From positions 1-25,007 of the forward strand of contig JAUWYR010000037.1 of NCBI GenBank assembly GCA_030615745.1: a stretch of DNA of 25,007 nucleotides, written 5' to 3'. The notes beneath the pieces are model-generated. The model did not search any database. It had not been told where the DNA came from and saw only the letters and a list, made by a program, of their open reading frames with translations. This DNA comes from Candidatus Zixiibacteriota bacterium. Its GTDB lineage: Bacteria; Zixibacteria; MSB-5A5; SM23-73-2. Made by a program: the position numbers and the translations under genes. Below, in pieces: positions 7,867 through 23,601 of the stretch. Positions within the stretch are counted from its first letter, which is position 1. The number at the start of each line of letters is the position of its first letter.

Positions 7867-7884
7867 TCGTTAAGATGCTTCGCA
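7867..7884 (+). repeat. 18-nt dispersed unit in the rplF-rplR spacer
   Basis: The sequence is tcgttaagatgcttcgca, which fills the spacer between the rplF stop and the rplR ATG apart from one T. Its last ten bases (ATGCTTCGCA) are identical to the ends of the units at 22908-22925 and 22981-22998, and to the reverse complement at 15886. The upstream eight bases are divergent. Because no purine-rich Shine-Dalgarno is left in the spacer, the unit apparently replaced the normal start region of rplR. Confidence 0.6.
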
Positions 7885-15885: not shown

Positions 15886-15923
15886 TGCGAAGCATCCTTC
15901 GGATTCCCGAAGCATCCATGATT
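15886..15923 (-). repeat. Two tandem copies of the ATGCTTCGCA-type unit
   Basis: On the minus strand, 15903-15886 reads tccgaaggatgcttcgca, differing at two of 18 positions from the unit at 22981-22998. A second, more divergent copy (aatcatggatgcttcggg) occupies 15923-15906, 20 bases away. The first copy can fold as CGAAG/CTTCG with a four-base loop. It lies in the 430-bp gap between the rplQ terminator and the M14 peptidase gene. Confidence 0.6.
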
Positions 15924-16003: not shown

Positions 16004-16225
16004 AATCAGTAGGATAGTTAAAAAATTAAGGCGTTCTTTGAAATTGGAGCGTAATTGACTTATTATCAAAGGATTATGAGATTAAGTTGAAGTAAAAGGT
16101 TAAATGAGAGAAGGTGGTCTTCTGATAAAATTTTGCGTAGGTATCAAAAGATAGATTGAGGGGGAGAAAATACCGAAATCTACGCTTGAAAAAATGAAAA
16201 ACCCTCAAACTCAAAGGAGCAAAAA
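16004..16225 (+). promoter_or_regulatory. Long structured 5' leader of the M14 peptidase mRNA
   Basis: Between the predicted start site and the GTG lies about 220 nt without a gene. It can form AGAAG/CTTCT (16109-16113 with 16119-16123). A longer-range stem pairs GCGTAGGTA (16135-16143) with TAC (16171-16173) and CTACGC (16180-16185). I do not recognise a known riboswitch class. The leader ends at the AAAGGAG ribosome-binding site (16213-16219). Confidence 0.35.
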
Positions 16226-21730: not shown

Positions 21731-21956
21731 TGCATCGGGGTAGGGTACCCCGATGGAACAGAAGGTAGGTAAGGTGTCCTGATGGAACAGGGGGTTGAAA
21801 ATAGCTGGAGTGCAAAAATTTATTTTTGCGATTTTAAAAACAGAAAAAACAAGTTTTTTCACTTCGATTGTTTGGGCAGGGTTCGTAGCGTCCGGGTTTA
21901 TCCCGGACGGTTTTTTTCGGCGGGTATGAAACCCGCCGCTACGCGTTTGGTTATGG
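21731..21956 (+). repeat. Long hairpin-rich repeat, copy A
   Basis: A 226-bp mosaic matches copy B (22782-23023) along its whole length. Hairpins in order: CATCGGGG/CCCCGATG (21733-21755), GCAAAAAT/ATTTTTGC (21812-21829), CGTCCGGG/CCCGGACG (21889-21909) and CGGCGGGT/ACCCGCCG (21918-21938). The segment ending CGATGGAACAG near 21760 is echoed by TGATGGAACAG near 21790. The CGTCCGGG hairpin is absent from copy B, while two 18-nt units of copy B are absent here. Confidence 0.85.
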
Positions 21957-22770: not shown

Positions 22771-22907
22771 TGGGTAGATAGTGTATCGGCGTAAGGTACC
22801 CCGATGGAACGGGGAGGTCGATAAGGTGCCCTGATGGAACAGTGGGTTGGAAATAGCTGGAGTGCAAAGATTTATTTTTGCGATTTTAAAGAAATAGAAA
22901 AAACAAG

Positions 22908-22925
22908 TTCTATGAATGCTTCGCA
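22908..22925 (+). repeat. 18-nt unit inserted in repeat copy B (first)
   Basis: ttctatgaatgcttcgca interrupts the copy B sequence CAAG-TTTTTT-CACT. Removing exactly these 18 bases restores the copy A sequence at 21850-21863. Confidence 0.8.
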
Positions 22926-22980
22926 TTTTTTCACTCCGATTTTTGGGCGGAGTTCGTAGACGTTTTTTTCGGCGGGCATA

Positions 22981-22998
22981 TTCGAAGAATGCTTCGCA
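22981..22998 (+). repeat. 18-nt unit inserted in repeat copy B (second)
   Basis: ttcgaagaatgcttcgca lies in the loop of the CGGCGGG hairpin of copy B. Removing it gives a 19-base hairpin core of the same length as copy A. It differs from the first unit only at positions 4-6, and can fold as CGAAG-AATG-CTTCG. Confidence 0.8.
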
Positions 22999-23055
22999 AA
23001 GCCCGCCGCTACGCGTTTTATGGATTATTCGATGGATGTTTGGTGACGTCAAAAG

Positions 23056-23601
23056 TTAGGCGAGGATTTTTAAAAATTCCTGGGGAATGCTTTCAGCTAA
23101 AACTACTTCTCCCATATCATAAAATTGAATTCCTTTTTCAAAAGCTTTATAAGCAAAAATTTTCAAAACAATAGTATAGTTCGACTTCCTTTTTCCTACT
23201 TCAATTGCCTCTTCAATGGTTTTGCTCAAATGGACATACTGGCGTCTCATCGGTTTCAAACCCTCCCTTTTTATCTTTTGAACAAAAGAAGGGGAGGTTC
23301 CATGATATAAAAATTGAGGAGGCTTTATCGGCTTTGCATCTAAATCTATTTTTAAACTATGACCATACCTTGCCCGGATTCTTTTCCCTTTTATCTCGAA
23401 TCTTTTCTTGGGGCAGTTTTTAACAACAGATTCAATCTCGGATTGGGTGATCTCAGGAAAACGCCTCTTTAATATTTTTAGTAAATCCTTGATTAAGACA
23501 AATCCATAAGAATCTGATTCCAGACCGAAATCTTTGGTTTTATGCCGTAAGATCAGAGACATAAATTTGGAGACAGACATTTGTTCTTTTTTGTTTAACA
23601 T
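23056..23601 (-). CDS. kptA: RNA 2'-phosphotransferase, Tpt1/KptA family
   Basis: KptA/Tpt1 transfers an internal RNA 2'-phosphate to NAD+, giving ADP-ribose 1'',2''-cyclic phosphate and nicotinamide. In fungi this finishes tRNA splicing; in bacteria the substrate is unclear. The 181-residue protein is full length. It has MSLILRHKTKDFGL with catalytic R19 and H20, KRIRARYGHS (R76, H81 region), LYHGTSP for NAD binding and RRQYVHLS with R120. The ATG has no Shine-Dalgarno. It faces repeat copy B and is transcribed away from the IS remnant. No RNA ligase or kinase gene is in the window. Confidence 0.93.
   Translation of the reverse strand: MLNKKEQMSVSKFMSLILRHKTKDFGLESDSYGFVLIKDLLKILKRRFPEITQSEIESVVKNCPKKRFEIKGKRIRARYGHSLKIDLDAKPIKPPQFLYHGTSPSFVQKIKREGLKPMRRQYVHLSKTIEEAIEVGKRKSNYTIVLKIFAYKAFEKGIQFYDMGEVVLAESIPQEFLKILA

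Follow-up and report, generated by a model that had tools for sequence, protein, structure and literature searches.

Small dispersed repeats (SDR) of cyanobacteria, which Elhai et al. are said to have described in 2008, are reportedly about 21-27 bp long. Like the unit described here, they are very small and dispersed, are found within other repeats and are thought to be mobile. Two other systems are close enough to be considered. Rickettsia palindromic elements (RPE) are longer, about 100-150 bp (PMC10969869). REP sequences carry a GTAG motif and are associated with CT/CA cleavage dinucleotides (PMC8266576). Nothing relevant was found in the literature on such repeats in Zixibacteria, the lineage from which the present sequence stems.

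An 18-bp unit in the window and in the genome

The window is the complete stretch of 25,007 nt that was analysed (contig JAUWYR010000037.1 of a Candidatus Zixiibacteriota bacterium). A preliminary description had reported two 18-mers in one copy (B) of a composite repeat. Both are present, and copies A and B indeed align along their whole length, with the 18-mers only in B (Table 1). It had also been claimed that removal of each 18-mer restores copy A exactly. This holds for the first, where the junction CAAG^TTTTTTCACT is identical. After removal of the second, the 19-base GGCGGG..CCCGCC hairpin has its copy A length but differs at three bases of the loop. The total length of copy A is not restored by both removals because about 20 bp (the CCGGGTTTATCCCGGACG region) are present in copy A and absent from copy B. 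The ATGCTTCGCA core occurs four times in the window, as had been counted before.

Table 1. Features of the 18-bp element superfamily and of the composite repeat in the window
Feature	Sequence	Position	Strand	Remarks
18-bp element	TTCTATGAATGCTTCGCA	22908..22925	+	hp1 of subfamily A2 and hp2 of A1
18-bp element, subfamily A1 consensus	TTCGAAGAATGCTTCGCA	22981..22998	+	
Composite repeat, copy B		22782..23023	+	both elements present
Composite repeat, copy A		21731..21956	+	both sites empty; junctions 21853^21854 and 21928^21929
Subfamily A5 element	TCGTTAAGATGCTTCGCA	7867..7884	+	
A6-type double mini-hairpin	TCCGAAGGATGCTTCGCA	15886..15903	-	within a longer palindrome
Diverged B-type element	TCTTTTGATACCTACGCA (TGCGTAGGTATCAAAAGA on the + strand)	16134..16151	-	

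The left flanks of the two elements in copy B are CAAG and CATA, respectively, each with a C at position -4; the site of the second is the loop of the GGCGGG/CCCGCC hairpin. Compared to a genome from the same genus (the congener), the site of the A5 element is 15 bp shorter there, a difference that lies in an ATA-repeat region and is ambiguous. The congener is devoid of the 18 bp which form the diverged B-type element. There are 3 pattern matches in the window against 0.06 expected, and no known RNA family was found in it. The element-bearing repeat is adjoined by a gene for a Tpt1/KptA RNA 2'-phosphotransferase (23056-23601), and genes for GcpE (IspG) and a TPR protein are located upstream.

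The genome, a 2.28-Mb draft in 74 contigs, was searched as a whole and was read in part (about 700 kb of stretches which were fetched around matches and hence are a non-random sample). Gene calls are open frames, and the subfamily names are those of this analysis. The whole-genome search proposed in the preliminary description, with up to two mismatches, retrieved many copies: TTCNNNGAATGCTTCGCA has 79 matches, against 2 for the reversed control. With two mismatches allowed, the sister type TTCTATGAATCCTTCGGA, searched by pattern TTCNNNGAATCCTTCGGA, has 112 matches (reversed control: 5; this set overlaps with that of TTCNNNGAATGCTTCGCA), and the sister type TCTCTTGATGCATACGCA has 96 (reversed control: 0). 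There are 20 further matches to TCTCTTGATCGATACCGA. In total, the superfamily comprises well over 200 elements in this genome. A blind scan of 708 kb for many-copy 18-mers with unrelated flanks placed TTCTATGAATCCTTCGGA, TTCGAAGAATGCTTCGCA, and TGCGTATGCATCAAGAGA in the first three ranks and also returned further 18-mer types. The family edges are sharp at 18 bp and the flanks are unrelated between copies, so that we see a dispersed unit with constant edges, as expected for an SDR-like repeat. Other dispersed repeats with unrelated flanks occur in the genome (GCCTGCCCGGCCAGGGAA, GGGGATGATAACATCCCT, and TAGCAGAGCCTTTATGGC).

The superfamily is almost restricted to this genome. In the congener, there are 12 matches to the first type at one mismatch and four to the B pattern. 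Ten of those 12 share one position within a larger repeat and thus probably reflect a single insertion that was copied together with its host repeat. This larger dispersed repeat (..GAACGAAGTGAAGGGTCTTTTAT..GGAAA[18]AATGAGATTCTTC..), which has nearly all A1 copies of the congener at a single site, is a mobile repeat carrying an older insertion along. A blind scan of the congener and of a genome from another family of the same order revealed no high-copy 18-bp families, and among 130 other genomes of the phylum there were isolated matches only, none of them convincing. The exact A1 18-mer, compared to the genome collection, has no cyanobacterial match. Horizontal sharing with Lachnospiraceae was considered and rejected: in some of these, where the same 18-mer is frequent, it occurs by chance at the centre of an unrelated repeat of about 76 bp, which is partly tandem and has unrelated edges. 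Viral carriage was also rejected: each of the three matches on viral contigs looks like an isolated hit within a coding sequence, and two share one conserved position.

Architecture, target signature, and candidate mechanisms

Nearly all types consist of two consecutive mini-hairpins (hp1 and hp2), [T..A][T..A], with 9+9 or 8+10 nt; the first letter is usually T and the last A. Examples are [TTC GAA GAA][TGC TTC GCA], [TTC TAT GAA][TCC TTC GGA], [CTC GAA GAG][TCC TTC GGA], [TC TCTT GA][TGC ATAC GCA], and [TC TCTT GA][TCG ATAC CGA]; others exist. The CGAAG/CTTCG hairpin proposed earlier is present in one subfamily, but it is the pair of mini-hairpins that extends over the superfamily. When the arm bases were left free and hp1 and the hp2 loop were fixed (pattern TCTCTTGATNNATACNNA), 73 of 75 copies in the genome proved to have Watson-Crick pairs at all free positions, the remaining two having one G.T pair each. 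Counted as arm types in this genome and the congener, six of eight are fully paired (1.5e-6 if types are independent). We consider this strong evidence that arm pairing is maintained, although a comparable signal would be expected from symmetrical recognition of the DNA by a protein. On the complementary strand, the hp2 loops nearly always read G-N-A or G-N-A-N (GAA, GGA, GTAT, GGAC, GAAT, GGAA); GNA and GNAB loops form unusually stable DNA mini-hairpins. By nearest-neighbour energy, the mini-hairpins are weak (0 to -1.6 kcal/mol), and A1 favours an alternative single hairpin of 5 bp.

Related forms of 15, 17, and 33 nt are present. The 33-nt composite TCTCTTGATGTCTCTTGACCTTCGGCATACGCA occurs at seven loci. 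The 15-mers TCTCTTGATCTTCGA occur within A2 elements at four loci, once in tandem, and are nested insertions of element into element.

A C is found at position -4 in 78 of 110 copies from five subfamilies, compared to a background of 19% (p=7e-32), while subfamilies A5 and B2 have it at -5; positions +2 and +3 favour A and T, respectively. The insertion preference is thus CNNN^, with the C four bases upstream. Some empty sites of the congener already contain this C (CTGA, CCTC, CAAT), and it therefore belongs to the target. The right end of the element also reads CNNN^ (CGCA, CGGA, CCGA), with the C at the same distance. B-type elements occur head-to-tail, exactly 18 bp or two units apart (contig C5 of the congener, G001, 844-879; contig C34 of this genome, G000, 40205-40258), an arrangement which is expected if the right end can in turn serve as a CNNN^ target.

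It had been suggested to look for an HUH transposase recognising the CGAAG/CTTCG hairpin, and none was found beside the element. The genome codes for three RAYT-like proteins (Y1_Tnp), and each of the genes is flanked by longer palindromes of its own (GTCAGGAGC..GCTCCTGAC; GTGCTGGATT..AATCCAGCAC; TCAAGTG..CACTTGA), as REP loci are. A link to these three transposases was rejected, as no 18-mer occurs in their loci. Reverse transcriptase (PF00078) is absent from this genome and the congener, and the TnpB-type domain PF07282 is absent from this genome, so that neither was retained as a candidate mobiliser. Movement of the IS200/IS605 type is expected to show a lagging-strand bias; relative to GC skew, no bias was seen (46 vs. 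51; 20 vs. 28). The precise ends, the lack of a target duplication, the hairpins, and the similar motifs at the left flank and at the right end recall the logic of IS200/IS605. Against this, the Y1 genes have their own REPs, neither TnpB nor reverse transcriptase was found, and no strand bias was seen. A single-strand enzyme acting in trans is thus put forward here as a preferred inference, short of a demonstration. In this mechanism, the element would fold in single-stranded DNA and would be recognised by its hairpins by a strand-transferase of the HUH/Y1 kind, which would cut 3' of CNNN at both donor ends and at the target. Insertion itself is precise, with neither duplication nor deletion of target sequence, and in most cases three bases separate the element from a preceding C (CNNN^). 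We regard a single-strand mechanism of the HUH type as quite possible, though at somewhat under even chances.

Spread without any dedicated enzyme, either by template switching of a polymerase or through small single-stranded fragments that are captured in the course of repair, would be compatible with the very small size, with the nested and tandem copies, and with the genome having neither a linked transposase nor a reverse transcriptase that could be found. We consider it unlikely, since the constant and precise 18-bp edges at both ends suggest a dedicated activity, as do a CNNN^ signature that is common to several subfamilies and the lack of co-transferred flanks. Still less probable is that the 18 bp are scars, the joined ends of larger transposons which have since departed. 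The two hairpins could be a left and a right end, and the junctions lack a duplication. However, only 3 hp2 halves (TGCATACGCA, TCGATACCGA) lacking the usual hp1 occur in about 700 kb, no larger element with these ends was found, and excision would have been needed at hundreds of sites.

Insertions in genes and empty orthologous sites

In ten proteins, the element corresponds exactly to a 6-residue insert relative to the congener orthologue. Among these are 1-deoxy-D-xylulose-5-phosphate synthase (DXS), a TldD/PmbA peptidase, a histidine kinase, TruB, NAD kinase, a DegT-family aminotransferase, and a metallo-beta-lactamase-fold protein. In a MurG-like gene, a 33-nt composite (15-mer within an A2 element) corresponds to an 11-residue insert. 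Of 154 elements, 94 are located in open frames with 150 codons or more, compared to 80% for random positions, and some reading frames are preferred over others, giving the peptides SEGFIE (A2) and SLDAYA (B). Placement and frame preference fit selection against harmful insertions, but could instead reflect the target signature. A genic copy adds six in-frame codons, and copies harming essential functions were presumably lost. The elements might also be taken for DNA sites with a function (signals for uptake, for segregation, or for the binding of a protein) which selection has spread, given that they are dispersed, occur in both orientations, and have palindromic parts. This is very improbable in view of the clean gain of 18 bp within conserved genes, of the many sequence types which share one architecture, and of the near absence from the congener genome.

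Insertions that are specific to this genome relative to the congener have a length peak at exactly 18 bp. This length accounts for 7 of 28 gaps (9-60 bp, with good flanks), while no other length of at least 12 bp occurs more than twice. Of these seven, six clearly belong to the family and one is a diverged member. In the same alignments, congener-specific insertions show no 18-bp peak. The nine junctions that were re-aligned are pure additions, without target duplication or deletion. As in SDR-like repeats, orthologous sites are found filled in one genome and empty in the other. In the genome from another family of the same order, TruB and the histidine kinase both lack the insert, and these two inserts were thus gained. 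The preliminary description had proposed a very small insertion-capable element, to be checked at orthologous empty sites and open to objection if copies were few or if unrelated deletions of differing lengths were seen. Copies number in the hundreds and the congener sites are empty by exactly 18 bp, which supports that proposal and removes both objections.

We consider it nearly certain that the units are mobile by insertion. For the opposite polarity, with the units deleted from copy A and from the relatives, it can be said that pairwise comparison alone does not reveal direction. At unrelated loci, the difference always amounts to exactly one member of the superfamily, and the genome from another family is also devoid of the units in some genes, which makes this highly improbable. 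Chance or low-complexity sequence, which the short length might bring to mind, is practically eliminated by the reversed-pattern controls (79 vs. 2, 112 vs. 5, 96 vs. 0).

Comparison with known systems

On balance, the elements probably constitute a lineage-specific superfamily of non-autonomous 18-bp insertion elements. More tentatively, they may represent a minimal class of mobile DNA: a pair of mini-hairpins of 18 nt, recognised by structure more than by sequence, which would insert 3' of CNNN by an undescribed strand-transfer mechanism or enzyme and would repeatedly place six-residue inserts into essential proteins. If this is true, the element would rank among the smallest mobile DNA known, and the known lower size limit of mobile elements falls to about 18 bp. 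It would also be a natural source of precise in-frame insertions of six residues in essential proteins. What mobilises very small repeats, a question dating from the cyanobacterial SDR, could then be tested on hundreds of insertions that occurred in nature and that show both arm covariation and a preferred target.

The present elements differ from SDR in their length of 18 bp, their occurrence in Zixibacteria, their two covarying mini-hairpins, the CNNN^ target signature, and the many in-frame insertions in essential genes. With RPE, they share the palindromic nature and in-frame insertion into unrelated metabolic genes, but an RPE has about 150 bp whereas the unit here has 18 bp, or six codons. 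REP sequences with their TnpA_REP/RAYT proteins (PMC8266576, PMC3116915) are likewise short hairpin DNA in high copy number, and three RAYT-like genes occur here. However, the GTAG/CGTC tag is not constant (it is absent from the A1, A2, B1, and B3 consensus, with CGTC only in A5 and B2), a C at -4 takes the place of CT/CA at the cut, and no RAYT gene is flanked by the 18-bp repeats. Moreover, the elements are not mostly extragenic, with 94 of 154 in open frames and ten exact genic inserts.

The ends of IS200/IS605 elements resemble the unit in having hairpins, in inserting 3' of a short motif without target duplication, and in a right end which finishes in a similar motif. Here, in contrast, there is no cargo, stems have 3 bp, and neither TnpB nor a guide sequence was recognised; in the genome, no autonomous partner (TnpA/TnpB) was found besides the RAYT-like Y1 genes. 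A DDE-type MITE would have terminal inverted repeats and a target duplication, and no duplication is seen at the nine junctions. The absence of PF00078 from both genomes argues against a retroelement (retron, group II intron). REP/RAYT, a DDE MITE, and an IS200/IS605 derivative with a resident autonomous partner thus all fail as assignments. There is a real chance that the mechanism is new. The element behaves like a small dispersed repeat and, within genes, like a Rickettsia palindromic element.
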